This document shows, piece by piece, positions 42,801 through 64,000 of a DNA stretch of 64,000 nucleotides. The stretch is taken from NCBI GenBank assembly GCA_011033025.1, contig WFMF01000448.1:1-64000 (forward strand), written 5' to 3'. Position 1 is the first letter of the stretch, and each line of letters begins with the position of its first letter. A program made the position numbers and the translations under genes. The notes beneath the pieces were generated by a model. The model had not been told where the DNA came from. It was given only the letters and a program-made list of their open reading frames with translations, and made no database searches. Source of the DNA: Beroe forskalii. Taxonomy: Eukaryota; Ctenophora; Nuda; Beroida; Beroidae.

Positions 42801-44134
42801 AGTCCAAATCTAAAAAGTAAAAGATTGATGCCTCGCTCCAATTCTGAATTAATATTGGGAAGATTTTGATAAATTGTCATAGTCATAATCATAATTGTTT
42901 TGAAATATTTTCCTGTAAACATTGCAAAACTTTATCTAAAAACATTGTGCAACAGAAATGAGTTTTAATGTGCTTGATTCTACAAGTGGAAAATTTTGGG
43001 CTTTGGCAACAGAAAGGGTGGGTAGGATGGTTGGGTGAATAATCTGTTTGTAATCAGCTTTAATCTAATTCTCTCCATTCTTTTAAGATCAATTAAAATT
43101 CTCTTGAGCAAAGGCCAAAAGTTGTTAGCTGTTATGCAACTTCAATCCTCTTGCAAGTCAATAACAGTGAATAAAGTGGAATGAATTTTAATGCAGCTGA
43201 GACAAAATAAGTTTCACAACATTTGAGTTTCGAATCTATTTTAATCTACGAACTACAGTACAGAAGTGCTATGAACCATAATAAATACATGCAATCATAG
43301 ACGAATTAAGTTAGACCATATGCATCCATGACGTATCAATGCAGTTAAATTTCTGGGCCCTATGCAGTTAAAATTCTGCAGTTAAAATTCTGCAGTTAAA
43401 ATTATGGGCCCTATATTCGGGGCCCAGCGGATTGAATCAGTATGTTCAGATTTGCTACCCAGAGCCTCTGGCATAGGAGGGGGGGAAGGGGTGAACTTAA
43501 CGGCTGTCTTCAATTTCAAGGCAATGAGGCCAAATTCAGGTGCTAATTGTAAAATTCACCGCAGAGAAGGCTCCAGCAAGTATTGATAGGATATCCAAGT
43601 ATGGAACTCAGGGAAAGTTTGAGAAGAAGAGGCAACCAGACGAATGGAAATCCTTTGTCGATCACACTTATCCTGGTAAGAATAATTCTGGTTGTTTGTC
43701 AGTTTGTCAATTGGAGAATGGCTTTGACAGATAGTTGTGCCAGCAAATATTATTCAGTAGTATTCTTATTTCTTAAAATCATTGATCGATAAGAACAGAA
43801 TTTAGGTACATATCACAATAATTCATGATTTTGAAATTTGGAGCAAATAAATTGAATGAACTGTAAAATTGTGCGTTTTATCTAAAAATTTAGATTCATC
43901 TTCAGTATTCCAATGAACAGGCAAACGCTTGAACTTGACATTTGTGCCTTTTCAATCTGCCAGGTCTTATGCAATCATTTCCCAGGTCTAAACGAGCATC
44001 AGGACGTTTCCCGAGGGACGTACTACCCCGTCATACCCTCCTATGGTAGGATGAGAACCGGCCGGAGTAGTAACGACACTCTGGTAGAATTAGGGGACAC
44101 TGAGATACCCTGGCCATCTGGTCCAATGAGGTGA
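36896..44134 (+). CDS. Small basic protein, three exons spanning the cellulase pair (tentative)
   Basis: Three plus-strand exons fit by splice site and phase: 36896-36963 ([20 protein letters not shown], then YS, ending phase 1), 43565-43675 ([20 protein letters not shown] followed by [17 protein letters not shown], phase 1 to 1) and 43986-44134 ([48 protein letters not shown], stop). The last two form a convincing pair; linking the first across 6.6 kb that contains the cellulase and its paralogue rests on phase alone. The 5' end is not found. The composition (Lys, Pro, Tyr and short motifs) resembles small axonemal or microtubule-associated proteins, but I do not recognise the family. Confidence 0.5.
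37197..39696 (-). CDS. GH9 endoglucanase with two N-terminal CBM2-like modules
   Basis: A secreted beta-1,4-endoglucanase. Two exons, 39696-37801 and 37610-37197, joined in phase 0, give 769 residues. Domain order: signal peptide ([20 protein letters not shown]); two related carbohydrate-binding-like modules of about 110 residues each ([25 protein letters not shown]; then [31 protein letters not shown]); a PEPEPT linker of about 80 residues; and the GH9 catalytic domain with the nucleophile-base motif [18 protein letters not shown], the histidine motif [12 protein letters not shown] and the catalytic-acid motif [20 protein letters not shown]. All expected catalytic residues are present, so the enzyme is likely active. 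It is transcribed away from its paralogue at 41293; 1.6 kb lies between the start codons. Confidence 0.95.
39697..41292. promoter_or_regulatory. Shared divergent upstream region of the cellulase and its paralogue
   Basis: This 1.6-kb AT-rich stretch separates the two head-to-head start codons and must contain both promoters. A TATATAG-type motif lies about 40 bases upstream of the cellulase ATG (near 39735, CTATATAGGA on the plus strand), and a TTATATAGCAGC motif lies at about 41247, some 45 bases before the paralogue ATG. The mirrored placement suggests that TATA-like elements were copied with the genes. No further sites can be supported. Confidence 0.5.
41293..42813 (+). CDS. CBM2-like protein with a very long PE repeat tail, no GH9 domain
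   Basis: A single-exon paralogue of the neighbouring cellulase, 506 residues. Signal peptide [20 protein letters not shown], the same two carbohydrate-binding-like modules ([56 protein letters not shown]), then about 225 residues of Pro-Glu repeats with regular PSPEP and PTPEP interruptions, and a short end [10 protein letters not shown]. No catalytic domain is encoded here, and none of its motifs could be found downstream to 44700. It may be a secreted cellulose- or chitin-binding protein, or a truncated remnant. The tail DNA is a CCAGAACC/CCTGAGCC minisatellite. The frame is fully open, which argues for recent origin or selection. Confidence 0.85.
42105..42780. repeat. Coding minisatellite, GAACCN hexamer
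   Basis: The linker is an array of six-base units (GAACCA, GAACCC, GAACCG, GAGCCA, GAGCCT) with periodic AGCCCA insertions coding PSPEP. The shorter linker of the cellulase (about 38690-38930) has the same units. Its minus strand is open in two frames as a consequence of the repeat. Confidence 0.95.
42814..43564. other. DNA downstream of the CBM2 paralogue
   Basis: AT-rich 3' region. A small tandem triplication of TGCAGTTAAAATTC flanked by GGGCCCTAT motifs lies at 43360-43420. No remnant of a GH9 catalytic domain was recognised. Confidence 0.5.
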
Positions 44135-44707
44135 TGTGATCTGAGATCCCCTGAACATCGGACCCCTGAGGTGATGTTGCGTGATCTGAGGTAAAGCTGA
44201 TTGGTTTAATGGTTACACCACCACCAGTGCAACTTGATATAGTGGTAGAGGAGCAGCTTAGTGTCATGAACCATGAAATAATGAGATGGATTAGACTCTG
44301 CGCGAACAAAATGGACCGCTTTATAATACTCCCCAGAATCAAAATCAAATTGCCTGAATCCCATCCAAGCCTAAGATAATACATAATATGAGAATGACGA
44401 CTGTTGAGATTTTTTAGAAATTTAGAATTCTTTATCTTAAACTTAATCTTTGACTTTCCAAGTTCTGAGGTACTATCAGTATCAAAATCAAAATATTTAC
44501 CTATACCTTATAATTTACCTTAATTTAGCCGGCTTTTTAAAAATTTTTACCGGCCGTATGTTGAAAAATTGAAAATGTTGAATTTGTATAATGATTAAAT
44601 TATTAATATCATTATATTTATCAATTAATGCCGATACGTTGCAAAATACTTTTGATATCATTTTTGCATATTGATTTGTTAATGGTTAACTTTATAAGCA
44701 ACTGCAA
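44135..44707. other. Intergenic DNA
   Basis: After the stop of the small plus-strand gene no exon is supported. The sequence is AT-rich. Confidence 0.4.
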
Positions 44708-44941
44708 AATTTATTATCTACAATTTATCACTATCAGGGGCGTGTCGAACTCATATGTGTGCCATGCGGCTTTTCCATGCGCGGCGTAACTGTGCGCGGC
44801 TCGCTGCCTGTTAATTACAGGCATGATGGCAGTAACAAGTAAGCCGCGCACGATTACGCCGCGCATTTAAAAACCACGCACGCGCACACATGAGTTCGTC
44901 ACGCCCCTGATAGTGATACGATAGATTGTAGATAATAGATT
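44706..44941. mobile_element. Foldback MITE with CAGGGGCGTG ends
   Basis: TTATTATCTACAATTTATCA and CTATCAGGGGCGTGTCGAAC at the left face GTTCGTCACGCCCCTGATAG and TGATACGATAGATTGTAGAT at the right. GC-rich stem sequences (GCGCGGCGTAA / TTACGCCGCGC) continue inward, with a small central hairpin (CTGCCTGTTAATTACAGGCA). CAGGGGCG-type ends recall hAT elements, but the mirrored flanks hide any target duplication. Confidence 0.78.
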
Positions 44942-45060
44942 GCTTAATTTTGTGTTCCATATATATAAGTATAACTCTGACTGAGTTCTAGTTACGTCAC
45001 TCCAGATCAAAACCTCGCAATCTTAATATCCTCAATTTGTCGTACGATGTTTCCTTATTT

Positions 45061-45216
45061 CCTAAGCCCGCATAGGTGTGTGTACGCGCCGCGCGCTTCC
45101 CTGTCACCTGTGCTGGGGTTGCTAAACACGTATATCCCTGTCTGCGTTGCGCGGCGCGCTTCCTGTGTCCCGTAGGGTAGCGCGGCGCGCGTACGCACAC
45201 CTATGCGGGCTTAGGA
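45061..45216. mobile_element. Foldback MITE, CCTAAGCCCGCATAGGTG family, complete copy
   Basis: Starts CCTAAGCCCGCATAGGTGTG and ends GCACACCTATGCGGGCTTAG, the exact inverse; same design as 14068-14253. Confidence 0.88.
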
Positions 45217-45640
45217 AGTGCTGGGGAAGCGCGCCGCCGCGCCGCGCGAGCCACACAGGGATATAATAGTATAATACGTGTTTAGCAAGTACGATGTATA
45301 TGACCCGCTGACTTCCTTATAAGTCTTGCCAGACGTAGACTATGCCTGGCTGCACGCGGCGCGTACACACACCTATGCGGGCTCAGGAAGCGCGAAGCGC
45401 GCGCGCCGGCCCGACTCGCAGAGGCCTGGCAACCTTAGTCCGCATAGGTTTCCTAAGCCCGCATAGGTGTGCGTACGTGCGCCGCGCTACCCTGTTCTGA
45501 GGAATGAGGAAGTGCGCCGCGCAACGCAGACAGGGATATACGTGTTTAGCAACGCATAGGTATTAGGTGTGTGTAAGCGCCGCACGCTTCCCTATGGGAT
45601 TAAGGATTATATAAATCGCCACGTGTGCGTGTTTAAGGTT
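45217..45640. mobile_element. Broken and nested copies of the same foldback family
   Basis: At least three partial copies: a right arm at about 45353-45390 (ACACACCTATGCGGGCTCAG), a left arm at 45449-45495 (TTTCCTAAGCCCGCATAGGT) and internal pieces with ACGTGTTTAGCAA near 45290, 45540 and 45640. The cluster looks like repeated insertion of the family into itself. Confidence 0.7.
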
Positions 45641-46126
45641 TAGCAAGGCAGAACGTTGGCCTCAGGCCTCTAGAGTTTAAACTTTTCGACAGGCTAGGTT
45701 ATAGTATCCACCAAGACCGACAGGGCCAGGTCGTGTCCCTTTTTGTTCGTGTACTGCATAATTGCAATTGGTTCTACAAAGTCGGACCAAAACTGTTGGC
45801 TTTGGACTATAGGGAAAATCTGCTTTTTACTGGCCCTTTCCACTTAGCTTACTAAATTGTGTTGCTTCTGACAATGAGCACAAGGCAGTTATGTGCTGTA
45901 CTACTGCACAAACTAATAACTTGTTTTCGCTCAGGATTGTGGATCAGTCAGCATTTCTGACTATATAATTACAAGAGTGGTGTATGTAAATTGAACATGT
46001 TTTGTGGATTTAGTTAAAAATATGGATAAATCTGTTTAAAAGTCACTTGATGATTATTTCAAATTTTTCAAAATCCCCTCCCCAGCTCCCCTACCTAATT
46101 GAACTTGTTGGGTTTATAATATTGCA
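45641..46126. other. DNA to the left of the duplication
   Basis: No supported exon. The duplicated sequence begins at about 46127, where similarity with 54639 starts. Confidence 0.4.
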
Positions 46127-47204
46127 CATACATATACCTTGCTATTGGACTTTGGATCGGTCAGCTTAGTGTACTGACTTTGGGCAATTTACCTCATAAG
46201 GAAGGGGAAAAGGGGACTGGGAAAAAGGGGACTGAATAGGCAGATGCCTCCTATTCCCTGAACTTCATTTTAACCTCATTCATTGTATAATTTTATTACA
46301 TCCTAGGTATATTCTGTCATCTGCATGTGTCTTAAACATGAACATTTTACCAATGGACCAAAATATGTCACCTAACAATTTAGTCATTTCATAAACCAAA
46401 TTATTCCTATTGATTTTATTATCACTCATCTCTTCCACTTCCATTGATCTCTATGCCCAATCCACCTTTCTCTCTGTGATGCTCAGAATTCTGGAGTTCT
46501 GGGTGGCCCAGCCTTGCAGTTGTAAGCTGTGAGGGTTACTGTGGGCTGAAAACTCCATTCTCTCTCATCACCTGCTGATGTAAAACCTTATCACAGGGAG
46601 AACCTTGCATCTGCAGGGTAACCGCTGATGATCCACAGTTTATTCTCTTCCCTCTCCACTCCGATCTTTTGATTAGAACATTTATATTCAGAATTTATTT
46701 TATGTTTATCATATACCCGTACACCTTTATAGATAAGACTTTGGATTACAGATTTATCCTCCATGATCTATTTGCCACATTGTTGTTTGGTGTTATTTTT
46801 GGATCTAGTTTTTCAATTTTCATACCTCTCAACCAGTTTGATTTGAATATAATCGTTTTAGCTCATAGGCCCATATCAAGAAAATGGCATATGTTCAAAA
46901 AGATACTTAAAAGGCAAAGTGGATAATGCTTCACAGGTTGCTTCTGCTCACTCGATACTTTTGCTTACTTGGCTCTGTGTCACATCTGGTTCTGCAAAAT
47001 AATGACATATATGCCAGGGTATGAATATTTGAAAGAGAACTAATTGGAAGTATTTAGCTACAGGAAATCTCATCTTATGATGAAGATTGTTATATAGTTG
47101 CTTGATTGCCTGAATGGTATTGCATATTGATCTTTATTTATTTAACATTCAGTTCCTTGGCAATGACTTATGATGTATTGACATGTAATTGTACATTATT
47201 TCAG

Positions 47205-50200
47205 GAAGGATCTGTCTATCAATTGAAGGAATATAGTAGCTTACAAAAAGTTTTAGAACAGGATGAATTGGTTAAAGATGCTGATGCTCTCTTGAGAAAG
47301 CTTGAATTAGTCAAGAGAAACATCATTGATGATGCTCCTTTGGTAAGTTTCTATGAAGCTAAGCTGTTCATTAAGCTGTTATATGTCGAAGTGGTGACTG
47401 TTGAGGCGACAGCCAAGACTGTTTTACTTGGATAATGGACGAGATGTGCCAAGTTCATTATCCAAGGTTTACTGTCACAGCTGATATCATGAAACTGGAT
47501 TATACCCCAGCCAGAAATATCTGAGAGGAGACTGACTGTTCTCTGACCAAACAACAGCATTTCTTCCCACTTGGGTCTGACGACCCTCGTCTGAATTTAA
47601 CACTTAAGTAGATTTTTGAGTGCTCCTTTATAAAAATCGAATTTAATTTTAAGATTTTTTGCGCTGTCATTCAATGGAGACTGTATAACCCAACTTACAT
47701 GGTTGCTGAAAAAAGCTTGAGAGGGGTATAAAACAATGGTTTATGCCCTTTATGTATAATTACTTCAGTACATCAATGTTTAAAATACAAAACACATTAA
47801 ATTAAATAACTGAGAATTTTGTGTACACCACCATGTGGAGTTCCTGAAAAAAGATATATACATCTATGGTTAATGTCAGATATGGCTGTTTCCTTTCGGA
47901 TGTAGTAATATTTATCTAAAAATTGAAAATTTCCAGTTGAACTCCGAGGAAAGCACTGATAGTGATAATGAAGCTTTCGAAAACGACTGCCTAGAGTCTG
48001 GACTGCTATCAGACTTTGACTTTTCAATACTTCCTGCATTAGAGAAGGACTATAAAGGTTACTCCAGATTCGAACAATACATGTGCATGGGTCAAGTGCT
48101 TACAGATGTCCCTCTTTGCTCCATTTATCCTAGTACCTTTTACATGGGCGACTACAGACATATTCCAGGTTATTAGGCATATGAATGATGTTTTGTGTTT
48201 TAAGTAAGAACATTGTACAATTATTTCTACCTGGAAAGAGATTTTATCATTATCAAAACTTAACAAAACAATATCTATTCCCACAAAGCTACTGTAGCAT
48301 TGGGAATCTCGTTTGAATAAGACTTTAAATAGTGATTTAAATAGTGATTTGATGCTATACAATTCTCAGGTGTTTCATCCATCACAGAAAAAAGTGGATC
48401 GCCAGCCTATGCATTACTTCCCTTCATTCCAACTGATGACATAGCCTTGTTTGGTCATTGCATGCACCACTATCTTCAAAGGGTTTAAGATCATTAAAAG
48501 TTCACAACTTTGTAATATATGAAATCGTATTTCTTAACCTTATTAACATTATTTGAATTCACCCTTCAAACTCTTCTCAAAATGAGCTATGAAATAGAAT
48601 TTTTCACCATTCACTATTCAAGGAACAATTTTAGTAAAGAGCACTATTTGCTTTCAGGACAGTAACAATTGGCATGCATTTTTTGCTGCATCGTTCTATT
48701 GGAGGCTCATCGGCAATGATGGAGCTGCTCTTGACTGCTTATTCAAAAGCTTGTATTATGCTCAAAACAACAAGTAAGATTGAAGAAATTTAAAGATGCG
48801 TTTTATACAAGTAGAATAAAATTTAAAATAATTATAACTGTATAGTAACTGGTGATCATTGTCTAAAATTGGGATTTTTAAATGCTTAGAACTGTACACT
48901 GTACAGTGTACACACATGTATGTAGACTATATCAAACTTGAATTGCGTACTTATCAGTTTAAGTAGAAAATCACATCGTGTAATTCAGACATTTTGAGGT
49001 GTTTAAATTAATTTTCCTCATTTCCATATTCCTATCTCAGGGATTATATTGACGGTCCGCTGGTTAGTCTTGCTAACCTCCTATCCAACGCTGGTCACGA
49101 CTCCGACGCTGCTCTGGTGATGGAACACAGTGCGGCGAGTACCTACCTTCAGCAACTCAAGCTCTGGAGTGCTGGCAACCTCTACACAGTAAGAGTAGGG
49201 GTTGAGGGGATACGGGACTCAGGGAGGTCAAGGGGTTCAGGAATCAGGGGATACAGGACTCAGAGGGGTGAAGGGGATCTAGGGGTCCGGGAATCAGGGA
49301 GGACCCGGGGAGGGGGTCTAGGAATCAGGGAGGACCCAAATAATTGGGAGGATGAGATTTATTATTAGGGAACTGGGATATCTGCCGTTTGGACTGATAG
49401 ATTTCAATTATGAATGATGGACAGTAGATGGATGGAGGATGGCTAATAGATGAGGATGGAGTTATCAGTAATGAGGATTATTAGGCTCTGTAAGTTATGG
49501 GTTTGTAAGAAAACAGGACCCATTGTCTAATTTTCAGTTAGCTGAGCAGTACAAGCTTTCCCTGGATCTGTACAACGCAACAATCAAACTCGGCCCGTTC
49601 CCATTAGTGGACGGCAGACTGCAGACCCTGGAGTGTTACGGGATTGTCATTCGGCGGATGGAGATGCAAAACAACGTGTTGCGGAGCACTCTGCAGAAAT
49701 TGCAGCAGCGTCACCAGGTAACGCTCCTTTGCAAAGTTATTCCTATGTTCGTAAAACCTCTTCTCGGAATCAGCCACCCATTATCCCGAATATTGAATAA
49801 TTGGTTGTATCGCTTGCTAATTTGAAGGAAATTGTTTCCACCGCACCACAACAAAAACTTCTTGATTTATATTATCAATACAGTTTAATGATATAAATAT
49901 ATTTAGTTTTATTTAATGGAATACATTTAACACTTCAAATATTCTGAAAAACTGCAAGGCTAAGCAGCATCTAAACTTTTGTTAGTCCAGTTTTAATAAC
50001 ATTTTATTAAAATAAGCATCTGTTTACAATTTCTCTGCGGCAGCATCAGGAAATCAAGTACAAGGTTAAATGTACAAATCCCAATCAAAATCATTGCAGT
50101 GTAATTAATTATGCAATTGCGCGGAATTGCGTCAGCTTTCAACAAATAAAACAGTTATAATGACCTAATGAGTGCGAAAGTTCATTCTTTCGTGGCATTT

Positions 50201-53200
50201 TCTTAGACCTTCGGCCCAGATTCCGTCTGATCCAGAGTCTTCGTATTTCTTAGACCTTTGGCCCAGAGTCCGTCTGTTGGAGAGTCTTCGTATTTCTTAG
50301 ACCTTTGGCCCAGAGTCCGTCTGTTGGAGAGTCTTCGTATTTCTTAGACCTTTGGCCCAAAGTCCGTCTGTTCCAGAGTCTTCGTATTTTTTAGAACTTT
50401 GGGCTTTGGCCCAGAATCTGTCTGGTGGAGCTTTTTGGTGCCTTTCTCTGATACCTTTGGCTTTAAGCCAGAATCTGTCTGGTGAAGCTTTTTGATGCCT
50501 CTTTCTGATAACTTTGGCTTTGGCCCAGAATCCGTCTGGTGAAGCTTCCCCCTGCCGAGCATCGTCGTTCCCATCCTGGTTGTAGAAGTGAGTTGATCCT
50601 TGGAGATTCTCGGGCAAATCCTTCCCAGGATCTTCTTCAGGAAATCCTGGAAACTCGCTACCGACAGAGTGTATACAAAGATGTTGGAAGTGGTGTTGAG
50701 GAAAGTGACGAAGAAAGCGTATCTGGCGTAGGACACGAAGAAGAACCTCTGGACTTCCCTGGACATCACGGGATAGAGATTGGTGATGATACTCTGGTTG
50801 AGAGCCACCGGGGCACAGGCCACGATGTAGACCATCCCTACGTACAGTGCAGTGAGGGCTCCCTGCAGGTTCATGCGTCTGGTGGTGACCCTCACATAGA
50901 GAAGCAGAGAGAGGGTCGTGCACAGGACCACCACATTAGGCAGGACCATGAGAGTGCCAATGAGCAGAGGTCTCAGCCATCTCCAGAGCGGGTGTCTGAA
51001 GACATAATGACACCTGTACAGTCGGTAGTCAAACGTCACGGACTCTCTGTCCAGAACTAGCTGGAAGATGGGGATGACGCAGCAGAGCAGCCACACTGCA
51101 GCAGATAACCGGTACCCAGTCTTAGTGGTCCTCAGTCGGGCCCTCAGGGGCTGCACAATGTTAAGGAGCTTGTTGATGTGCATAACACAGATCAGCTGCA
51201 GAGCTGATATGAAGATGGGTACTTTGAGGTAGTGGTTGAGATAACAGGCGAAGTCACCGTATACCCACTTGTTAGCAATGAGGGATGTCATGGTCGGGTG
51301 GATGGTGCAGACCCCCATCAGAATGTCACTCACAGCAATGTTCTGGATCAACACCACTGAGATCTTGTCCAGTTTGATGCTCTTGTACCGCACTGTAGCC
51401 AGTAGGATGATGCTGTTCCCAGTGAAGTTGATGACAAGGACCACTGCACACCATGTTATCAGACTGTAGCGTTGGGGGTCCGTCTGGAGTCCAAAGAGCG
51501 TCTGATTGGAGATGGGCACTGTGAGCATTCTCTTTCCTACATTGTGTGAACAGGTTATTAGTTTCACAGAAAGGTCGTTTTACTGACCTCAAAAGCTAGA
51601 GTTGATTTGATATATAGCTCTTGCTAATGCTAGAGAAGAAGTGCAGTTGTTCTTATCTAGTTTTTAACTGCTTGAGGTCGTGTTTAAATACTGCAGAAAA
51701 CTGACAAATATTTTGCGTCATTCGAGTTGATGAAAAATAAGATCTGTGATGTCAATGACAAATGAAATTATTGATATATCCTGAAAGCTCTAGCTTTCAG
51801 GTTGGACAAAATTAATTTACTTGACCTTTTCGTTCTTGAAATCAGTAGTTCAATATTGGACTTTGAAATCGATTTCGAACAATTCTAATCTAAACCTATT
51901 CAATCTTATCTACTGTGAGTCAGATTGATCAGTAAATCATTGACAAATATATCTTGACAAATCAAGAACTCAGCAGATAAAATCTCAGCTTAGAGACGGT
52001 GAATTTCTCTAAATCTTACTTAAGTAAAGTACCGTCATTCTGCTATTATTTCAGCTCGAGACAGAGTACATTGGGCTGCAAGAGAAGATGTATTCTAACA
52101 TGGTGAACGCAAGTCTACCCTCTCATGTCATCAAACAAGTGCAAGGAACTGAGGATGCTGTGAGGAACACTCACAAACTTGTGTTAGAGCAACAGGTAGG
52201 ATATGGGGTGTACGCTGTTCTGGACCGTAGTTTGAAAAGAAAGATAGAAAATTTTTCTACTTAACAATTATCTCACGCATGAAGATGTTTTTGGTCACAG
52301 TATGTTTTCTCGCTCAAATAAAACAGTCTGTGCAACGTCATCAATATTTGCGATCAATGAATCAACATCATTCCAACTGCCACTCACTCCAACGCAGCCT
52401 AACATCCCCCTCTCTTATCTCCAGGAGATCCAAAGCACGCTAAGTCCAGCCAAGTACCTGGACTCAGTAACTCTACGTCACAACATAGTGACATCCTCCC
52501 TGCTGACAGAAGAAGAGGAAGAGGTGGTGGATAGTGGGGTAGGGAAGAAGGATGTCAACTGGATACGATCTACAAGACTCAAGTTGGAGAGACTGGTGGA
52601 TCAGATCAAGGGGCAGTTATCAGAGGACGAGGAGCTTCCTATTTACTATGATTGTGTGGAGACAGAGGAGGGGGAGAAGGGTGTCTTGGACTGTGAGATG
52701 GGTGAGTGGACTTTATTGGAGCTAGAATTGGAATGTCCGAGATAAAATCTAAGGTAACTTACAATTTGCATATTGTTATCTAAAAATTATATGTTTCGGA
52801 GTTCTACAAGGATCCAACGAAAATCAGGAAAGCATGAAAATATTAATGAGAAAACTCTATCCTCAACTTAGTCCTCAGTTTATACCTGCATGATGGACTT
52901 TTATTGTTTATTGGAGCAACTTTCTGTATTGTATGATGGGACAATGTTATATTTGTTAGCCTTTTGTTTCTTTTGTCAGTTAGCTGATTATCCTTTCAGA
53001 CGAAGGCTCAGTAACGAGATCGACTAACGAGGAAGAGCAGCACATCCTCGGACTCATGACAGCGGAAATGGAGCGGTTGTCAAGGAAACAAGACACGGTG
53101 ACGCTGCGTGAGGTGTCACGCGACGGTGACCATGGTAACGCTGACGTCACGCCACATGACGATCACGTGACCTTACACCCCGGCCTGTCGGCGCAGGACT

Positions 53201-53613
53201 TCGTCCTGTTCACTGACATGTTCCCTTTTACTGAACAGGTACCGTTTCTCCTTAGAATCAAATCGCTCTGAGATGAAAGGTATGCTCAACACTGTAACTT
53301 TGCAACTGAACAACAGTCCCGAAATCTGATTTGACGCGCTGCAATTTAAGTAATCATATTTGTTTACAGTGGCAGTATCCAAGTGGCTCGACAGTCGACC
53401 ATATTTGGATGAGTCTTTATGTTTTAAATTTAGCCCCAACTTCTCCGCTTGTTTCAGGTAGAAGACGAGTCGGAGGGTTGTGAAGTGTTAACTGGGGAGA
53501 GTGACAAGTGGTACCAGCTCAAGTGCAGGGTTTGGGATGAGAACATGGCCAAAGTGGAGAAGGACGTCAAGATAGTGATCAGGGAACAGAGCTCAAAGTC
53601 TGCTTCTATTGAG
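47205..53613 (+). CDS. TTC17: TTC17-like protein, 5' half, copy 1
   Basis: TTC17 is a tetratricopeptide protein linked to actin assembly and ciliogenesis in vertebrates. Exons: 47205-47342, 47937-48168, 48370-48482, 48658-48773, 49041-49188, 49538-49717, 52055-52195, 52425-52701, 53000-53238, 53458-53613, all with GT-AG borders and matching phases, about 580 residues. Family hallmarks: QEGSVYQLKE-type start (family MRQEATVNYLKELE), a 'VPLCSIYPSTFYMGDYRHIP' segment before the TPRs, NNWHAFFAASFYWRLIGN, then KDYIDGPLVSLANLLSNAGH, and a coiled region (LECYGIVIRRMEMQNNVLRS). The first coding exon with the start codon and the C-terminal TPR half are not present; after 53613 only satellite DNA follows. 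It is either a 3'-truncated duplicate or part of a gene spliced into unit 2. Confidence 0.75.
49189..49345. repeat. Short G-rich minisatellite in TTC17-like intron, copy 1
   Basis: Imperfect units such as GGGGATACAGGACTCAGAGG and GAATCAGGGAGGACC. The matching place in unit 2 (58954-59475) has grown to over 500 bp. Confidence 0.75.
50200..50350. repeat. 47-bp tandem repeat after the GPCR stop codon, copy 1
   Basis: Three units containing CTTAGACCTTTGGCCCAGAG and CCGTCTGTTGGAGAGTCTTC directly follow the receptor stop codon (minus strand). They continue the repeats that encode its C-terminal tail. Copy 2 has only about one such unit at 60340-60390. Confidence 0.85.
50344..51567 (-). CDS. Class A GPCR, intronless, nested in TTC17-like intron, copy 1
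   Basis: A 407-residue receptor with seven membrane segments in one exon. TM1 has the GNSIILLATVRY motif (N1.50), TM2 VLIQNIAVSDILMG (D2.50), a cysteine before TM3 (GDFACYLNHYL), and after TM3 CVMHINKLLNI in place of the DRY box. TM4 has a tryptophan, TM6 reads YIVACAPVALNQS in place of CWxP, and TM7 ends SNIFVYTLSVASF in place of NPxxY. This is the style of lineage-expanded cnidarian class A receptors; the ligand cannot be guessed. The tail after helix 8 consists of four 17-residue repeats (KLHQTDSGPKPKVSERG type). The gene is antisense in the intron between exons 6 and 7 of the TTC17-like gene. Confidence 0.9.
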   Translation of the reverse strand: MKLITCSHNVGKRMLTVPISNQTLFGLQTDPQRYSLITWCAVVLVINFTGNSIILLATVRYKSIKLDKISVVLIQNIAVSDILMGVCTIHPTMTSLIANKWVYGDFACYLNHYLKVPIFISALQLICVMHINKLLNIVQPLRARLRTTKTGYRLSAAVWLLCCVIPIFQLVLDRESVTFDYRLYRCHYVFRHPLWRWLRPLLIGTLMVLPNVVVLCTTLSLLLYVRVTTRRMNLQGALTALYVGMVYIVACAPVALNQSIITNLYPVMSREVQRFFFVSYARYAFFVTFLNTTSNIFVYTLSVASFQDFLKKILGRICPRISKDQLTSTTRMGTTMLGRGKLHQTDSGPKPKLSERGIKKLHQTDSGLKPKVSEKGTKKLHQTDSGPKPKVLKNTKTLEQTDFGPKV

Positions 53614-53824
53614 GTCAGTGACCTAGGTAGACTAAGAGCTTAATAAAATAATAAGATGTCAGCCGTCTGTGTATTATGGCAATGAGGGCGATTAATTCGT
53701 TACGTTTATTTGTTAATGTTGTTCATATACAATCTTCCGAGCAATAATCGTCTTTTAAATGTTATCAACTCGTCACTTAGAACTATGATAATGACGTCAC
53801 CTCACCCCCATATCTCCCACAGTT

Positions 53825-54638
53825 AGTGACAGATGGTAAGTGATAGTCTATTGGTGATAGGGACCTCTGTTAACTGATAGGTCCCTGTTATTGATAGGGA
53901 CCTCTGTTAATGATAGGAATCCCCTGTTAGTGATAGGGACTTCTCTGCTAACTTGATAGGGTCTCCCCTGTTAGTGATAAGGGACCTCTGTTAACTTGAT
54001 ATGGGTCCCTGTTGTAGTGATAGGGACCTCTGTTAACTTGATAGGGTCCCTGTTAGTGATAGGGACCTCTGTTAACTTGATAGGGTCCCTGTTAGTGATA
54101 GGGACCTCTGTTTACTGATAGGGTCCCTATTTAGTGATAGGGACCTCTGTTAACTTGATAGGGTCCCCTGTTAGTGATAGGACCTCTGTTAACAATGATA
54201 GGTCCCTGTTGATGATAAGGACCTCTGTTAATTGACAGGGTCCTCTGTTAACTTGATAGGTCCTATGTTAGCTTGATAGGTCCCTGTTAGTGATAGGGAC
54301 CTCTGTTAACTTGATAGGGTCCCTATTGTAGTATTGGGACCTCTGACCCAACTTGATAGGGTCCCTGTTAGTGATGAGATCTCTATAATTGTAACTTGAC
54401 CAGGGTCCCCCCTGTCAGTGATAGGGACCTCTGTTAACTTGATAGGTCCCTGTTAGTGATAGGGACCTCTGTTAACTTGATAGGGTCCCCTGTTAGTGAT
54501 AGGGACCTCTGTTTACTTGATAGGGCCCCCTGTTAGTGATAGGGACCTCTGTTAACTTGATAGGGTCCCCTGTTAGTGATAGGGACCTCTGTTAACTTGA
54601 TAGGGTCCCCTGTCAGTGATAGGGACCTCTGTTAACAT
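53825..54638. repeat. 40-bp satellite, second array
   Basis: About 20 copies of GTGATAGGGACCTCTGTTAA followed by CTTGATAGGGTCCCCTGTTA, with many indels in the first half and cleaner units in the second. It is the same family as 1-1505 with two fixed differences (GGGACC for GGGTCC; TAGGGTC for TAGTGTC). It ends where unit 2 of the duplication begins. Confidence 0.95.
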
Positions 54639-54735
54639 ATACCTTGTCATCGGATCTGCCAGCTTAGTGTACTGACATTTTACTGACATTTTACTAATGG
54701 ATCAAAATACATCACCTGCCAATGTAGTCATTTCT

Positions 54736-55544
54736 TACTTACTTTGGGGTGGAACAGTAATATTCGGCCGAAGCCCTACTAACCGTGCCGTCAGGAACAA
54801 CCTCTGCTGGCTGAGCCTAAGGCTCCCTGAGATATACAATATTAATACTACCAGTATGATATGCTGCGACGATCTTCCCGAAGCCTAGATGATCGTCGCC
54901 ATCCTGCAGCTTGCAATCCCTTATGGAGCGAGTCCAAAAGAGAAGACAGAGACCAAACTGCACGGTGTAGTACCTGAGAGGATTCGCACACTAGGAGTGC
55001 TTTGACCTGGAGATATGATCTATTAAGTGGGAACTGGGAATAGGAATTGAAGTCGCTTTAACTGAGACCAGGTCTAAGTGCAAAGAATATACTGTTGTTA
55101 TAAATCAGTCAAAACTTCTGAGAAACATATCTGTACTTTCCTAAGTTGAGTTATCTGACTGCCATCATACGCAAAAGGGCATAGACAGAAGTGGTTTGGG
55201 ATGTTACTAGGAGTTAGGACTGAGTGTTGAAGCCTAACCAGAGAGGTTAAGGCAGCTATTGTCTGTCCTGTAGAGAAATGTGTTGTAGAATTTAGGACGA
55301 TTTGACTAGGAAAGTATCTGCTAAATAAATTCTGTACGTGGGAATCATAACTAAATGTTGGAGTTGCTAAGTGGTGAAAGCTCGATACAAAGCCTCATTA
55401 CCAGACAAACTTAAAGGGTGCTGGGGGACATTTCCTGATAGTGGTAGAAGAATATCTCCCGCCACCTCGAGATACTATAGGTCTCTTCCTGGTGAATCTG
55501 CATGTCCTGCATTGCATCTAGATGTCTGAAGTCTGTGCAAACAG
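54736..55544. mobile_element. Unit-2-specific insertion of about 0.8 kb, unknown type
   Basis: Unit 1 reads straight through TTAGTCATTTCATAAACC at 46380. In unit 2 TGTAGTCATTTCTTA occurs at 54722 and TGTAGTCATTTCATA again at 55544, with about 810 bp between. The 12-base TGTAGTCATTTC would be a target duplication. No inverted ends, poly-A or coding frame were recognised. Its start includes GGCCGAAGCCCTACTAACCG, so an RNA-derived SINE or a larger retrotransposed sequence is possible. Confidence 0.6.
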
Positions 55545-56405
55545 TGTAGTCATTTCATAAACCAAATTATTCCTATTAATTTTATAATCACTCATCTCTT
55601 CCACTTCCATTGATCTCTATGTCTAATCCCCCCTTTCTCTCTGTGATGCACAGAATTCTGGAGTTCTGGGTGGCCCAGCCTTGCAGTTGTAAGCTGTGAG
55701 GGGTACTGTGGGCTGAAAACTCTCCATTCTCTCTCATCATCTGCTGATGTAAAACCTCATGGCAGGGAGAACCTTGCATCTGCAGGGTAACTGCTGATGA
55801 TTCACAGTTTAGTCTCTTCCCTCTCCACTCTGATCTTTGGATTACAAAATTTATATTCAGAATTTATTTTATGTTTATCATATACCTGTACACCTTTATA
55901 GATAAGACTTTGGATAACAGATTTATCCTCCATGATCTATTGGCCACATTGTTGTTTGGTGTTATTTTTGCATCTATTTGACTCATAGTTGGTTGGTGTT
56001 ATTTTTCAATTTTCATACCTCTCAACCCGTTTGCATTGAATATCATTGTTTGAGCTCATAGGCCCATATCAAGAAAATGGCATATGTTCAAAAAGATACC
56101 TAAAAGGCAAAGTTGATAATGCTACACAGATTGCTTCTGCTCACTCGATATTTTTGCCTACTTGGCTCTGTGTCACATCTGGTTCTGCAAAATAATGACA
56201 TATATGCCAGGGTATGAATATTTGAAACAGAACTAATTGGAAGTATTTAGCTACAGGAAATCCCATCTTATGATGAGGATTGTTGCACAGTTGCACAGTT
56301 GCTTGATTGCCTGAATGGTATTGCATATTGATCTTTATTTATTTAACATTCAGTTCCTTTGCAATGGCTTATGATGTATTTACATGTAATTGTGCATTAT
56401 TTCAG

Positions 56406-59400
56406 GAAGGATCTGTCTATCAATTGAAGGAATATAGTAGCTTACAAAAAGTTTTAGAACAGGATGAATTGGTTAAGGATGCTGATGCTCTCTTAAGAAA
56501 GCTTGAATTAGTCAAGAGAAACATCATTGATGATGCTCCTTTGGTAAGTTTCTATGCAGCTAGACTGTTTATTAAGCCGTTACATGTCAAAGTGGTGACT
56601 GTTGAGGAGACAGCCGAGACTGTTTTACTTGGATAATGAACAAGATGTGCCAAGTTCATTATCGAAGGTTTATGGTCATTGGTCACAGCTGATATCATGG
56701 AACTGGATTATACCCCGACCAGAAACATCTGAGAAGAGACTTACTGTTCTAGTGTTCTCTGACCAAACAGCAGCATTTCTTCCCACTTGGGTCTGATGAC
56801 CCTCATCTGAATTTAACACTTAAGTAGATTTTTGAGTGCTCTTTTATAAAATCAAATTTAATTTTTAGCTTTTTTTGCGCTGTCATTCAATGGAGACAGT
56901 ATAACCAAACTTACATGGTTGCTTGCTAAAAAAGCTTGGGAGGGGTATGAGTACATCAGTACATCAATGTTTAAAATACAAAACACGTTATATTAAATAA
57001 CTGAGAATTTTGTGTACAACACCATGTGGCATTCCTGAAAAAAGATATTTACATCTATGGTTAATGTCAGATATGGCTGTTTCTTTTCGGATGTAATAAT
57101 GTTTATCTAAAAATTGAAAATTTCCAGTTGAACTCAGAGGAAAGCACTGATAGTGATAATGAAGCTTTTGAGAACGACTGCCTAGAGTCTGGACTGCTAT
57201 CAGACTTTGACTTTTCAATACTTCCTGCATTAGAAAAGGACTATAAGGGTTACTCCAGATTCGAACAATACATGTGCATGGGTCAAGTGCTAACAGATGT
57301 CCCTCTGTGCTCCATTTATCCCAGTACCTTTTACATGGGCGACTACAGACATATTCCAGGTTAGTAGGCATTTGACTGATGTTTTGTGTTTTAAGTAAGA
57401 ACATTGTACAATTATTTCAACCTGGAAAGAGATTTCATCATTATCAAAACTTGAATGACCAATATCTATTTCCACAAAGCTACTAGTGGGGGGGGGGCAA
57501 CCCCCATAAACCCCCGGTGGATATCGAAAAATGGCAAATGGGGGTTTAATTTTTTGGGGTTTATGGGGGTTTATGGGGGCTTGATTTAGTTTAAGTTTGC
57601 TGTTTTATGACTGATTTTGTTCACGATTTTTGGCATTTTACGGAATGGTACCATTTTTGTTTAGGATTTTCAACCCTTTTCTGAAATGGTACCATTTTTT
57701 TGATGAAGTTCGGCCCTTTTCTGAAATGGTACCAATTTTTCTGCGATTTTCAAGCCTTTTTGAAATGGTACCATTTTCTGTTGCGCATTTTCTAACCTTT
57801 CCTAAAATGGTACCATATTCAGCCATTTTTTGAAATGGTACCATTTTTTGTTGACAATCTTAGACCCTTTTTTGAAATGGTACCATTTTTGTTGGCGATT
57901 TTCAAGCCTTTTCTGAAATGGTACCATTTTTTTGTTGACGATTTTTGGCCCTATTTTGAAATGGTTCCAATTTTCATTGAAGATTTTCGACCTTTTTCTG
58001 GAAAATTAAACCCCCATAAACCCCCAAGTGGATATCGAAAAGTTCAAATGGGGGTTAAATTTTTGGGGGTTTATGGGGGTTGGCCCCCCCTACTAGTTTG
58101 GGAATCTAGTTTGAATAAGACTATATAGTGATTTGATGTTATACAATTCTCAGGTGTTTCATCCATAACAGAAAAAAGTGGATCACCTGCCTATGCCTTA
58201 CTTCCCTTCATCCCAACTGATGACATAGCCTTGTTTGGTCATTGCATGCACCACTATCTGCAAAGGGTTTAACATCTTTAAATGTTCACTACTTTGTAAT
58301 ATATGAAATCGTATTTCTTAATTCTTATTTAACCAAAATGAGCTTAGCTATGAAATAGAATTTTTCACCATCACTATTCAGTATTCAAGGAACAATTTTA
58401 GTAAAGAGCAATATTTACTTTCAGGACAGTAACAATTGGCATGCATTTTTTGCTGCATCGTTTTACTGGAGACTCATCGGCAATGATGGAGCTGCTCTTG
58501 ACTGCTTATTCAAAAGCTTGTATTATGCTCAAAACAACAAGTAAGATTGAAGAAATTTAAAGATGCGTTTTATACAAGTAGAATAAAAGAATTATAACTG
58601 TATAATAACTGGCGATCATTGTCTAAAATTTGGATTTTTAAATGCTCAGAACTGTACAGTGTACAGTGTACACACATGTATGTAGAGTGTAGACTGTATC
58701 AATCTTAAATTCGTACTTATCAGTTTAACTAGAACAACACTTCGTGTAATTCAGACATTTTGAATTGTTAAAATTAATTAACCTCACTTCACATTCCTAT
58801 CTCAGGGATTATATTGACGGTCCGCTGGTTAGTCTTGCTAACCTCCTATCCAACGCTGGTCACGACTCCGACGCTGCTCTGGTGATGGAACACAGTGCGG
58901 CGAGTACCTACCTTCAGCAACTCAAGCTCTGGAGTGCTGGCAACCTTTACACAGTAAGAGTAGGGGTTGAGGGGATACAGGACTCAAGGAGGTGTAAGAG
59001 TTCAGGTCTCAGGGGATACAGGACTGAGGGGGTGAAGGGGATATAGGGGTCCGGGAATCAGGGAGGGATCAAGGGGATCTAGGGGTTCAGAAATCCGGGA
59101 AGGCCGCGCCCTGGGGGAGGGGTACAGGACTCAGGAAGGGCCCGGGGAAGGGGGTACAGGACTCAGGAAGGGCCCCGGGGAAGGGGGTACAGGACTCAGG
59201 AAGGGCCCCGGGGAAGGGGGTACAGGACTCAGGAAGGGCCCCGGGGAAGGGGGTACAGGACTCAGGGAAGGGCCCCCCGAGGAAGGGGTGGGACTCAGGA
59301 AGGGCCCCCCGGGGAAGGCGAGTACAGGACTCAGGAAGGGCCCCAGGGAAGGGTGCAGGACTCAGGAAGGGCCCCGGGGAAGGGGGTACAGGACTCAGGA

Positions 59401-62400
59401 AGGGCCCCGGGGAAGGGGGTACAGGACTCAGGGAGGGTCTCGGGGGACGGGGTGCTGGACTAAGAGAGGGTTCGGAAAAATTGGATCAGATTTGTTAGTA
59501 AACTGGGATATCTGCTGTTTGGACTGATAAATTTCAATTATGAATGATGGACAGTAGATAGATGGAGGATGGCTAATAGATGAGGATAGAGTTATCAGTA
59601 ATGAGTATTATTGGGCTCCGTAAGTTTTGGGTTTGTAAGAAAACAGGACCCAATGGCCAATTTTCAGTTAGCGGAGCAGTACAAGCTTTCCCTGGATCTG
59701 TACAACGCAACAATCAAACTCGGCCCGTTCCCCTTGGTGGACGGCAGACTGCAGACCCTGGAGTGTTACGGGATTGTCATTCGGCGGATGGAGATGCAGA
59801 ACAACGTGCTGCGGAGCACTCTGCAGAAATTGCAGCAGCGTCACCAGGTAGCGCTCCTTTGCAAAGTTATTCATATCTTCATATGTTCCTAAAATCCCTT
59901 CTCGGAATCAGCCACCCATTATCCCGAATATTGAATAATTGGTTGTATCGCTTGCTAAGTTGTAGGAAATTGTTTCTAAGAACTATAACATCACCGCACC
60001 ACAACATAAACTACTTAATCTATGTTATCAATCCAGTTGATGATATAAATATATTTAGTTTTATTTAATGGAATACATTTAACACTAGACATATTCTGAA
60101 AAACAGCAAGGCTAAGCAGCATCTAAACTTTTGTTAGTCCAGTTTTAATAACATTTTACTGACATAAGCATCTGTTTACAATTTCTCTGCGGCAGCATCA
60201 GGAAATCAAGTACAAGGTTAAAAGTACAAATCCCAATCAAAATAATTGATTATGCAATTGCGCGGAATTGCGTCAGCTTTCAGCAAATAAAACAGTTATA
60301 ATGACCTAATGAGTGCGACAGTTCATTCTTTCGTGTCATTTTCTTAGACCTTTGGCCCAGATTCCGTCTGTTGGAGAGTCTTCGTATTTCTTAGACCTTT
60401 GGGCCAGATTCCGTCTGTTGGAGAGTCTTCGTATTTTTTAGAACTTTGGGCTTTGGCCCAGAATCCGTCTGCTGGAGCTTTTGAGTGCCTTTCTCTGATA
60501 CCTTTGGCTTTAACCCAGAATCCGTCTGGTGAAGCTGTTTGGTGCCTCTCTCTGATACCTTTGGCTTTGGTCCAGAATCTGTCTGGTGAAGCTTTCCCCT
60601 GCCAAGCATCGTCGTTCCCATCCTGGTTGTAGAAGTGAGTTGATCCTTGGAGATCCTCGGGCAAATCCTTCCCAGGATCTTCTTCAGAAAATCCTGGAAA
60701 CTCGCTACCGACAGAGTGTACACGAAGATGTTGGAAGTGGTGTTGAGGAAAGTAACGAAGAAGGCGTATCTGGCGTATGACACGAAGAAGAACCTCTGGA
60801 CTTCCCTGGACATCACGGGATAGAGATTGGTGATGATACTCTGGTTGAGAGCCACCGGGGCACAGGCCACGATGTAGACCATCCCTACGTACAGTGCAGT
60901 GAGGGCTCCCTGCAGGTTCATGCGTCTGGTAGTGACCCTCACATAGAGAAGCAGAGAGAGGGTCGTACACAGGACCACCACGTTAGGCAGGACCATGAGA
61001 GTGCCAATGAGCAGAGGTCTCAGCCATCTCCACACCGGATGTCTGAAGACATAGTGGCACCTGTACAGCCGGTAGTCAAACGTCACGGACTCTCTGTCAA
61101 GAGCCAGCTGGAAGATAGGGATGACACAGCAGAGCAGCCACACAGCGGCAGATAACCGGTACCCGGTCTTTGTGGTCCTCAGTCGGGCCCTCAGGGGCTG
61201 CACAATGTTCAGCAGCTTGTTGATGTGCATGACACAGATCAACTGCAGGGCTGATATGAAGATGGGTACTTTGAGGTAGTGGTTGAGATAGCAGGCGAAG
61301 TCACCGTACACCCACTGGTTGGCAATGAGGGATGTCATGGTTGGGTGGATGGTGCAGACTCCCATCAGAATGTCACTGACAGCAATGTTCTGGATCAACA
61401 CCACTGAGATTTTGTCCAGTTTGATGCTCTTGTACCGCACTGTAGCCAGTAGGATGATGCTGTTCCCAGTGAAGTTGATGACAAGGACCACTGCACACCA
61501 TGTTATGAGACTGTAGCGTTGGGTGTCCGTCTGCAGGCCAAAGAGCGTCTGATTGGAGATGGGCACTGTCAGCATTCTCTTTCCTACATTGTGTGAACAG
61601 GTTATTAGTTTCACTAAAAGGTCGTTTTACTGACCTCAAAAGCTGTTGATATATAGCTCTTGCTAGAGAAGAAGTGCAGTTGTTCTTGTCTAGTTTTAAA
61701 CTGCTTGAGGTCGTGTTTAAATACTGCAGAAAACTGACAAATAGTTTGCGTCATTCGAAGTGATGAAAAATAAAATCTGTGATGTCAATGACAAATGAAA
61801 TTATTGATATATCCTGAAAGCTATAGCTTTCAGGTTGGACAAAATTAATTTACTTGACCTTTTCGTTCTTGAAATCAGTAGTTCAATATTGGACTTTGAA
61901 ATCGATTTCGAACAATTCTAATCTAAACCTATTCAATCTTATCTACTGTGAGTCAGATTGATCAGTAAATCATTGACAAATATATCTTGACAAATCAAAG
62001 GTGTCGAACTCAGCAGATAAAATCTCAGCTGAGAGACGGTGAATTTCTCTTAATCTTACTTAAGGGGGGGGGTTCAAGCCAAATTTTTGGGAAAACACGT
62101 TTCTGAGATAACGGTTGACCCAAAGGTATACCCCGTGGGCCAACTTTTGGCCAGGTTTGGTACCCCAGACCCACTGGCGCCGCCGTGGCGCCATGCCCAA
62201 ATATGGGCACAAAATGGGCATATTTTTTTCAAAAAGCAACTTGGGCGGGATCTGAGGGAGTGCAATCGATAGATAATGGTCCCCTGAGTTGCCATAAAAA
62301 AATTTGAAGTCGATATCTCCAAAATGGCTGAGTTATGGCCGAAAAACATTGTATGCCCATATATGGGCATACGCGCGTCTTTTAATAATTCTGGCCCATA

Positions 62401-64000
62401 ACTTGGGCAAATATCAAAATTTTTTTTGAATGAAACCAACTTTTATTCATTAAATAGCGTTGAATTATGTATTCTCTGCAAGTTTGGGCTTGATTGCTGC
62501 TAAAATGACGATTTGGTCAAAAAACCTCTAAAAACCTACAAAGTGCCTTTACTCAAACTCTTCGGCTGATTGATATTTTGCTAATTCTTTTACGTGAAAC
62601 TAGTCTAAATTCCTCAGATAAAAAAATTATTTGAGTTGGGCAAAATGGGCTTTTTTTTTGAAAAGGCACTTTTGGCAAAAAATTTTGGCAACTCGGCTAC
62701 ATTTGTGGTTTTTTAGAATTTGACCTCTTTTTTAGCAGCAATCACAACTTGCAGAGAATACAATTCAACGCTATTTAATGACAAATGGATCCGGAAATTT
62801 GATATTTGGCCAAGTATGGGCCAAAATAATTTTTGGGCGCCAAAATAAAGCCATTTTTTGAAAATTTTGGATTTTTATGGTAACTCAAGGAACCGTTAAT
62901 ATCGATTGCACTCCTCAGATCCTACAAGTTGCTTTGAAAAATGCGCCCATTTGTGCCCATATTTGGGCATATCTGTATGCCAGTGGGTCAGGGGTACTAA
63001 ACCTGGCCAAAAAGAGGCCAATCATCGGTAAGATGGGTCAACTGTTATCAAACTGAAAAACGTGCCATTCCCAAAATTTGGCTGAACCCCCCCCCTTGGC
63101 AAATACCGTCATTCTGCTATAATTTCAGCTCGAGACAGAGTACATTGGGCTGCAAGAGAAGATGTATTCTAACATGGTGAACGCAAGTCTACCCTCTCAT
63201 GTTATCAAACAAGTGCAAGGAACGGAGGATGCTGTGAGGAACACTCACAAACTAGTGTTAGAGCAACAGGTAGGATACAGTAACATACACTATTCAAAAG
63301 ATCTGTATCTACAATTATGTCTTATATGAAAATCTTTTTGATCCTAGAATAGTTCATACTTTCATAGTTCAGAAAAGGTTCCCGTGTGAACAAAAAGTCA
63401 GTTGATTGTCATCAATATCCGCTTCTACAAACTATAATTCCCCTATAACCCCCAGGAGATCCAAAGCACGCTAAGTCCAGCCAAGTACCTGGATTCAGTA
63501 ACTCTACGTCACAACATAGTGACATCCTCCCTGCTGACAGAAGAAGAGGAAGAGGTGGTGGATAGTGGGGTAGGGAAGAAGGATGTCAACTGGATACGAT
63601 CTACAAGACTCAAGTTGGAGAGGCTGGTGGATCAGATCAAGGGGCAGTTATCAGAGGACGAGGAGCTTCCTATTTACTATGATTGTGTGGAGACAGAGGA
63701 GGGGGAGAAGGGTGTCTTGGATTGTGATATGGGTGAGTGGACTTTATTGGGACGGAAATTGGACTGTCCGAGATGAAGACCTAGGGTAAATAACGATTTG
63801 CATATTGTTATCTAAAAATAGGATGTTTCTCAGTTCTACAAGGAACAAACTAAAATCAGGAGAGCATGAAAATATTAATGAGAAAACTCTTTCCTCAGCT
63901 TAGTCCTCAGTTTATACCTGCATGATGGACTTTTATTGTTTATTGGAGCAGCTTTCTGTATTGTATGATGGGACAATGTTATTTGAATCTTTTGTGCCTT
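56406..64000 (+). CDS. TTC17: TTC17-like protein, copy 2, continues beyond the window
   Basis: Exons seen: 56406-56543, 57128-57359, 58154-58266, 58425-58540, 58806-58953, 59668-59847, 63129-63269, 63456-63732; the next exon (starting DEGSVTRS in copy 1) would begin just past the right edge. Exon lengths and phases equal those of copy 1 and the protein is nearly identical in every exon; nucleotide changes are mostly silent. All hallmarks (NNWHAFFAASFYWRLIGN, GPLVSLANLLSNAGH, LECYGIVIRRMEMQ) are kept and no stop interrupts it. As in copy 1 no start-codon exon was found before the first exon. This copy may be the one attached to the complete C-terminal half outside the window. Confidence 0.75.
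57488..58089. mobile_element. 602-bp hAT-like MITE inserted in unit 2
   Basis: Flanked by an exact 8-bp direct repeat CTACTAGT (57480-57487, 58090-58097) in sequence that is uninterrupted in unit 1. The ends are inverted: GGGGCAACCCCCATAAACCC and GGGTTTATGGGGGTTGGCCC. The interior has about nine copies of a 38-40 bp unit around CTGAAATGGTACCATTTTT. No protein is coded; the open frames here follow the repeat. Confidence 0.93.
58954..59475. repeat. 33-bp G-rich minisatellite, expanded in unit 2
   Basis: About ten copies of AGGGCCCCGGGGAAGGGGGT plus ACAGGACTCAGGA after a less regular beginning. Unit 1 has only a short, irregular precursor. It lies immediately after a 5' splice site of the TTC17-like gene. 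Confidence 0.92.
60391..61614 (-). CDS. Class A GPCR, intronless, copy 2
   Basis: Also 407 residues and nearly identical to 51567-50344 through the membrane domain: only a few conservative changes are seen (for example Lys to Gln in IANQWVYGDF, Val to Ala in FQLALDRESV and Leu to Val in RHPVWRWLRP). GNSIILLATVRY, NIAVSDILMG, GDFACYLNHYL, VACAPVALNQ and SNIFVYTLS are all unchanged. The tail repeats differ most (GTKQLHQTDSGLKPK, TQKLQQTDSGPKPK), as expected of unstable repeat DNA, but total length and frame are kept. It is nested in the intron between exons 6 and 7 of copy 2, as in copy 1. Conservation of the frame suggests both copies are functional. Confidence 0.9.
   Translation of the reverse strand: MKLITCSHNVGKRMLTVPISNQTLFGLQTDTQRYSLITWCAVVLVINFTGNSIILLATVRYKSIKLDKISVVLIQNIAVSDILMGVCTIHPTMTSLIANQWVYGDFACYLNHYLKVPIFISALQLICVMHINKLLNIVQPLRARLRTTKTGYRLSAAVWLLCCVIPIFQLALDRESVTFDYRLYRCHYVFRHPVWRWLRPLLIGTLMVLPNVVVLCTTLSLLLYVRVTTRRMNLQGALTALYVGMVYIVACAPVALNQSIITNLYPVMSREVQRFFFVSYARYAFFVTFLNTTSNIFVYTLSVASFQDFLKKILGRICPRISKDQLTSTTRMGTTMLGRGKLHQTDSGPKPKVSERGTKQLHQTDSGLKPKVSEKGTQKLQQTDSGPKPKVLKNTKTLQQTESGPKV
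62065..63107. mobile_element. 1-kb foldback element inserted in unit 2
   Basis: Unit 1 reads TTACTTAAGTAAAGTACCGT; in unit 2 this is split after CTTACTTAA by about 1040 bp. The insert starts GGGGGGGGGTTCAAGCCAAA and ends TTTGGCTGAACCCCCCCCCT, and its two halves are mirrored at moderate identity along almost the full length (for example GGGCCAACTTTTGGCCAGGT against CCTGGCCAAAAAGAGGCCAA, and ATGGGCA-rich blocks in both). The centre is near 62590. The right flank reads TTGG where the left reads TTAA, so the target duplication is uncertain. No transposase. Confidence 0.85.

Follow-up and report, generated by a model that had tools for sequence, protein, structure and literature searches.

The window analysed, 64,000 nucleotides long, comprises bases 1–64000 of a 143,231-base contig of Beroe forskalii; reading was extended to base 94000 of the contig, and the whole-genome searches covered the 216-Mb assembly (1134 contigs). 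Self-alignment reveals two direct units (46374–53839 and 55540–64861, representing ~7.5 kb of unit 1), with 88–97% identity in the main aligned blocks. The outermost 5′ piece (46127–46373) falls outside the blast blocks and was judged by eye, placing the start of homology at 46127 in unit 1 and at 54637 in unit 2, the latter directly after a satellite. Both units carry eleven full exons of a gene resembling TTC17, identical in length and phase, and each has a 394-aa antisense intronless receptor frame in intron 7 (Table 1), as a preliminary description of this DNA had reported from the sequence. The duplication of the two units is thus confirmed, and that of a TTC17-like half gene with its nested receptor is supported, with the TTC17 name provisional.

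Table 1. Coordinates of the duplicated locus (window positions; contig positions where stated)
Feature	Position	Strand	Remarks
Duplication unit 1	46127..53839	+	Alignment with unit 2; 5′ edge by eye
Unit 1 exon 1	46926..47018	+	ATG; hydrophobic, signal-like MLHRLLLLTRYFCLLG...
Unit 1 exon 2	47205..47342	+	
Unit 1 exon 3	47937..48168	+	Donor GTTATT, lower score than unit 2 GTTAGT
Unit 1 exon 4	48370..48482	+	
Unit 1 exon 5	48658..48773	+	TPR-like stretch; match to approximate human TTC17, E 0.002
Unit 1 exon 6	49041..49188	+	TPR-like stretch; match to approximate human TTC17, E 0.002
Unit 1 exon 7	49538..49717	+	
Nested intronless receptor 1	50344..51528	-	Intron 7 of unit 1; 394 aa
Unit 1 exon 8	52055..52195	+	
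Unit 1 exon 9	52425..52701	+	
Unit 1 exon 10	53000..53238	+	
Unit 1 exon 11	53458..53613	+	Both ends phase 0
Unit 1 truncated exon 12	53823..53843	+	17 nt common to unit 2, then LVTDGK and stop
40-bp minisatellite array, duplication junction	53848..54636	+	Tandem-repeat scans (one gives 53854–54636)
Duplication unit 2	54637..64000 in window	+	Homology to contig 64861; predicted gene to 67437
Multi-copy element, 810 bp, unit 2 only	54735..55544	.	Flanked by TGTAGTCATTTC
Unit 2 exon 1	56119..56211	+	ATG
Unit 2 exon 2	56406..56543	+	
Unit 2 exon 3	57128..57359	+	
Unit 2 exon 4	58154..58266	+	
Unit 2 exon 5	58425..58540	+	
Unit 2 exon 6	58806..58953	+	
Unit 2 exon 7	59668..59847	+	
Nested intronless receptor 2	60391..61575	-	Intron 7 of unit 2; 394 aa
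Foldback-like element, 1036 bp	62065..63100	.	Unit 2 intron 7; missing from unit 1
Unit 2 exon 8	63129..63269	+	
Unit 2 exon 9	63456..63732	+	
Unit 2 gene exons 10–18	contig 64027–67437, past window	+	

Gene Models and the Nested Receptor

The gene model was built by hand from splice signals and from conservation between the copies; the GT/AG dinucleotides are kept in all eleven introns of unit 1. The preliminary description had taken the exon at 47205 as the first duplicated exon, beginning in phase 0. The phase-0 boundaries hold, but an ATG exon lies 279 bp earlier in unit 1 and 287 bp earlier in unit 2. This first exon was located by reading the sequence and then checked by comparison of both units, which differ in it at four positions with no amino-acid change. 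Its 11-residue windows reach 1.96 on the Kyte-Doolittle scale, and a putative signal peptide is called from this hydropathy. A motif like the first exon of an approximate TTC17 sequence, scanned over 36000–47210 and 53800–56410, gave five unconvincing matches and was set aside.

Unit 2 together with exons 12–18 forms a complete predicted gene of 18 exons (contig 56119–67437) encoding 1058 aa and terminated by a stop. The C-terminal half, which the preliminary description had proposed to seek past position 64000, is present on the same contig (64845–67437). No second copy supports exons 13–18 or the part of exon 12 past its first 17 nt; these are modelled from open frames, splice signals and a TPR-like match in exon 17. 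Directly downstream lies a DNAAF9-like gene (Pfam DNAAF9 domain matches), a single, apparently intronless frame of 1058 codons (contig 69257–72430).

In the predicted gene model the receptor coding frame lies wholly between exons 7 and 8 in both units. In unit 2, residues 1–315 of the receptor hit Pfam 7tm_1 (E 8.9e-14; 52 bits against a cut-off of 30.5), which identifies a class A (rhodopsin-like) receptor. In the blast alignment of the two receptors, 1154 of the 1185 bases are paired and no indel opens among them; a gap starting in the neighbouring tandem repeat takes in the remaining 31, and both frames are of equal length. A 47-bp repeat at the receptor 3′ end occurs 4.3 times in unit 1 (50199–50402) and 2.3 times in unit 2 (60340–60449). 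The receptor core shows 4 nonsynonymous and 38 synonymous differences (ratio 0.03, Ks 0.192), where simulation gives 45–58 amino-acid changes if one copy were neutral; the repeat-rich tail is looser (8 nonsynonymous, 12 synonymous). The receptor family is large, with 126 genome matches including these two, many of them full-length intronless open frames. Other members are paired on the same contig with near-equal scores (contigs C721, C487 and C333), as if tandem copies were frequent in the B. forskalii genome.

The 3′ End of Unit 1 and the Junction

The preliminary description had unit 1 stopping after position 53613 and running into satellite DNA. The satellite does follow unit 1, but the unit does not stop there: an intron of 209 bp, its acceptor intact, follows 53613, and after it the first 17 nt of exon 12 are retained. 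Homology breaks at 53839, and the frame continues as L-V-T-D-G-K to an in-frame TGA (53841–53843), giving a predicted product of 617 aa that comprises the N-terminal half and six codons of exon 12 before the stop. The break also creates a donor-like ATG/GTAAGT sequence (score 8.15), the use of which would yield a 13-nt exon and a shifted frame into unit 2. Donors of exons 3 and 11 score lower in unit 1 than in unit 2 (6.9 versus 10.7 and 6.3 versus 10.2, respectively) and that of exon 7 higher (8.0 versus 6.7), on a matrix that favours unit 2, the 17 donors behind it having been taken from unit 2 and the C-terminal exons. Between the unit 1 stop and unit 2 exon 1 the sole AATAAA (55324) is within the inserted 810-bp element, and neither AATAAA nor ATTAAA occurs in the junction apart from that element; weaker AATAAA variants are at 54706, 55086, 55099 and 55556. 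The first AATAAA past the stop of the full gene is also distant (1.7 kb).

The junction satellite is one among many arrays of a 40-bp family, whose array counts in the assembly are lower bounds; among the matches scored, its best full-length relative elsewhere is 90% identical and partial pieces reach at most 95%. The contig itself begins within another of these arrays (window 1–1504). We considered unequal crossing-over between satellites flanking the duplication and rejected it because such flanking arrays were not found: tandem-repeat scans gave no 40-bp-family array at the left edge of unit 1, nor in the 10 kb holding the right edge of unit 2. The 810-bp element, present elsewhere in the assembly at full length and up to 97% identity, is flanked by the 12-bp repeat at 54723–54734 and 55545–55556. 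The first 560 bases of the foldback-like element have many genome copies, and the units differ further at 57485–58097 and near 59067–59380. Elsewhere in the window are a 0.7-kb palindrome (18001–18713, inverted self-match 93.7%) and a long tandem repeat (42124–42778) with units like CCAGAACCTGAA, Pro-Glu-rich if coding. An Rfam scan of the window returned no match at gathering score. The COX1-bearing mitochondrial contig of the assembly has 13,339 bases, 56.8% of them T; ARAGORN, under a bacterial setting, gave no tRNA there, and tRNAscan-SE likewise gave none in a published ctenophore mitogenome (PMC6991124). AGA stands at COX1 positions conserved as arginine, and these traits would suit a ctenophore. 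At 4311–4694 and 7546–8652 of the mitochondrial contig, two distinct frames begin with a nearly identical stretch of ~50 residues, which suggests that part of it is duplicated.

Divergence between the Units and Selection on the Half-Copy

Noncoding divergence between the units is 7.2% over 4086 aligned sites. In 300-bp windows it is uneven along the units, ranging from 1.3% to 11.5%, so some local gene conversion between them may have occurred; the final 45 bases ahead of the break are identical. Over exons 1–11 (611 codons) there are 3 nonsynonymous differences (E478D, E491D and H494L, unit 1 to unit 2) against 49 synonymous ones (Ks 0.136, Ka 0.0021, Ka/Ks 0.015), the half-copy standing 12–14% from the full gene at silent sites. 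The duplication, previously called recent, is therefore so in a relative sense only, given these Ks values for the TTC17-like exons and the receptor core and the noncoding divergence.

When unit 1 was simulated as neutral for half of the synonymous divergence (three sets of 2000 runs), a mean of 86, 72 and 60 amino-acid changes was obtained at kappa 1, 2 and 4, respectively, and the lowest single run had 23. With the share of synonymous changes randomised (kappa 2), none of 2000 runs gave three changes or fewer. If unit 2 contributed no change, at most ~11% of the history of unit 1 would be neutral (Poisson P 0.046). Indel events number 0 in 1833 aligned coding bases and 48 in 4086 aligned noncoding bases; the probability of none in the unit 1 coding sequence, were it neutral, is ~2e-5. 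We rejected gene conversion limited to exons as the only reason for the clean exons, because exonic Ks (0.136) is not below the noncoding divergence. These comparisons indicate that unit 1 is not decaying, with the qualification that both the Ka/Ks and the indel tests cover the whole period since the two sequences parted, and that this parting may be older than the truncation. Had the truncation struck one of two already diverged alleles, or one of two full genes, unit 1 could be newly dead.

Relationship to TTC17

The comparison with TTC17 used an approximate human sequence. Against this sequence alone the full predicted protein gives a best blastp E of 2.3e-18, with local identities of 26–30% in the three best-scoring pieces, and tblastn and blastp place matches in exons 5, 6 and 17. 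Pfam returned no family for the full predicted protein at E ≤0.1, and a PDB search with it gave four weak matches (E 0.3–0.63), for which reasons the name is held as provisional; one of the four, YrrB (E 0.3), we take to be of TPR type. A literature search pairing TTC17 with ctenophores found no paper.

TTC17 is described as a soluble protein of the ER that carries two sets of TPRs; it is reported to be conserved in chordates and to be lacking in Drosophila, C. elegans and yeast (PMC10783571). The Beroe gene would resemble it in a putative signal-like N-terminus, candidate TPR-like stretches in two halves and the local matches to the approximate sequence, but would fall outside the range stated in that account (PMC10783571).

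Discussion

Our favoured explanation, which we think probable, is a partial tandem duplication in which unit 1 is a separate secretory N-terminal half kept by selection. A segment from upstream of exon 1 to 17 nt into exon 12 is present in two copies of the same orientation, joined by some of the dispersed 40-bp minisatellite. The downstream copy is the complete predicted gene, start exon and C-terminal half included; because each unit contains the first exon with its ATG and signal-like sequence, unit 2 has no need of unit 1. The upstream copy comes with upstream sequence of its own, a start, the signal-like exon, eleven exons that are all intact and an in-frame stop; its product is most likely a separate 617-aa half that holds the first TPR-like region only, enters the secretory pathway and is kept by selection. 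The nested receptor was copied as a passenger with its host half gene, and both copies are still intact.

The preliminary description had left the product as either a truncated protein or a TTC17 with an internally repeated N-terminal half. Both can still be entertained, and the truncated protein is favoured because unit 1 has an in-frame stop in the retained exon and unit 2 its own start and C-terminus. As had been noted, exon 11 of unit 1 ends in phase 0, and joining 53613 to 56406 keeps the frame, exon 2 of unit 2 also starting in phase 0; a junction that, the inserted element aside, is free of AATAAA and ATTAAA likewise suits a transcript running on into unit 2. Against this, unit 1 retains the exon 12 acceptor and the exon behind it carries an in-frame stop, so a frame-keeping fusion must skip the exon at 53823 altogether, and the donor-like sequence at the break offers only the frame-shifting 13-nt exon. 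Since unit 2 has a start exon of its own as well as the C-terminus, a full-length gene needs no fusion, and we regard a single protein spliced from both units as improbable. An assembly artefact, with two haplotypes of one locus set in tandem, is in our judgement very improbable. A 531-bp unit probe matches nearly in full at two places in the assembly, both on the Beroe contig of the duplication (its other 39 matches being ~60–85-base pieces of a dispersed repeat), as such an artefact would give, and a low Ka/Ks is also expected of two functional alleles. However, when 1.5 kb upstream, 2.7 kb of the C-terminal half and 3.2 kb of the downstream gene were used as flank probes, each matched at full length nowhere in the whole assembly but at its own place; the upstream probe also picked up a dispersed repeat, for a total of 234 matches, and the C-terminal probe 61 bases common to unit 1. 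Being single copy at full length, the flanks are collapsed, which makes stacked haplotypes unlikely. The join is inside an exon, with a short resemblance to the satellite by eye and no overlap usable by an assembler, and the 94 kb read contains no N. Heterozygosity in the ctenophore Hormiphora is given as 2% single-nucleotide and ~3.2% combined, by a measure with an artificial ceiling (PMC8527503); the divergence between the units exceeds that 2%, a figure bounded by the same ceiling.

A further alternative is a real duplication in which unit 1 is now functionless, the copies having diverged beforehand as alleles or as tandem full genes and the truncation being recent. One genome was examined, without an outgroup, and ctenophores can be highly heterozygous (PMC8527503); the two lower-scoring unit 1 donors (exons 3 and 11) and the identity of the last 45 bases before the break would also suit a recent loss. 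Set against these points, a Ks of 0.14–0.19, the noncoding divergence and the 48 indel events are high for alleles, and the junction satellite, at 90% to its full-length best among the matches scored, is unlike a very fresh insert, with the caveat that satellites turn over fast. We consider a functionless unit 1 unlikely. The observations of the preliminary description are thus confirmed, and its interpretation is partly supported.

Partial tandem duplicates that carry a nested gene as a passenger are an already known, ordinary kind of arrangement. Partial duplicates are reported as frequent in worms and flies and often lumped with pseudogenes; among spontaneous duplications detectable in mutation accumulation lines of C. 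elegans, 63% were partial (PMC3449122). The copy here is likewise incomplete, retaining exons 1–11 and 17 nt of an 18-exon gene, with the 5′ exons kept and the 3′ exons lost, and in the terms of that review unit 1 is "with recruitment" of a few junction bases; the complete unit 2 gene is taken as the source, where the stricter definition given there asks for an outgroup (PMC3449122). In contrast to Katju's partial duplicates, the half-copy has a Ka/Ks of 0.015 over 611 codons and a nested receptor gene. HvARM1, a partial duplicate of HvPUB15 in the Triticeae, similarly derives from a gene with a protein-interaction repeat domain, but is a plant gene whose own function is reported as demonstrated (PMC6092874), whereas the Beroe half-copy is known from sequence. 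In Hormiphora 2357 nested intronic genes in 1654 hosts are reported, likewise genes within an intron of another (PMC8527503); in Beroe, by contrast, host half and guest were duplicated together. What appears unusual is how clean the half-copy is, its predicted amino-acid sequence being nearly unchanged.

Beyond the favoured reading of a retained N-terminal half, we propose tentatively, as a possibility rather than an expectation, that the half-copy is a working gene under very strict selection, encoding a secretory-pathway protein with the first TPR-like region only, perhaps partnering the full-length protein or competing with it. Should the TTC17 name prove right, the gene would be placed outside the chordates named in PMC10783571. 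If the proposal is true, the half-copy may bind one of the two partner sets of the full-length TTC17-like adaptor. An expressed half-copy would offer a natural experiment on the N-terminal half of such an adaptor by itself.
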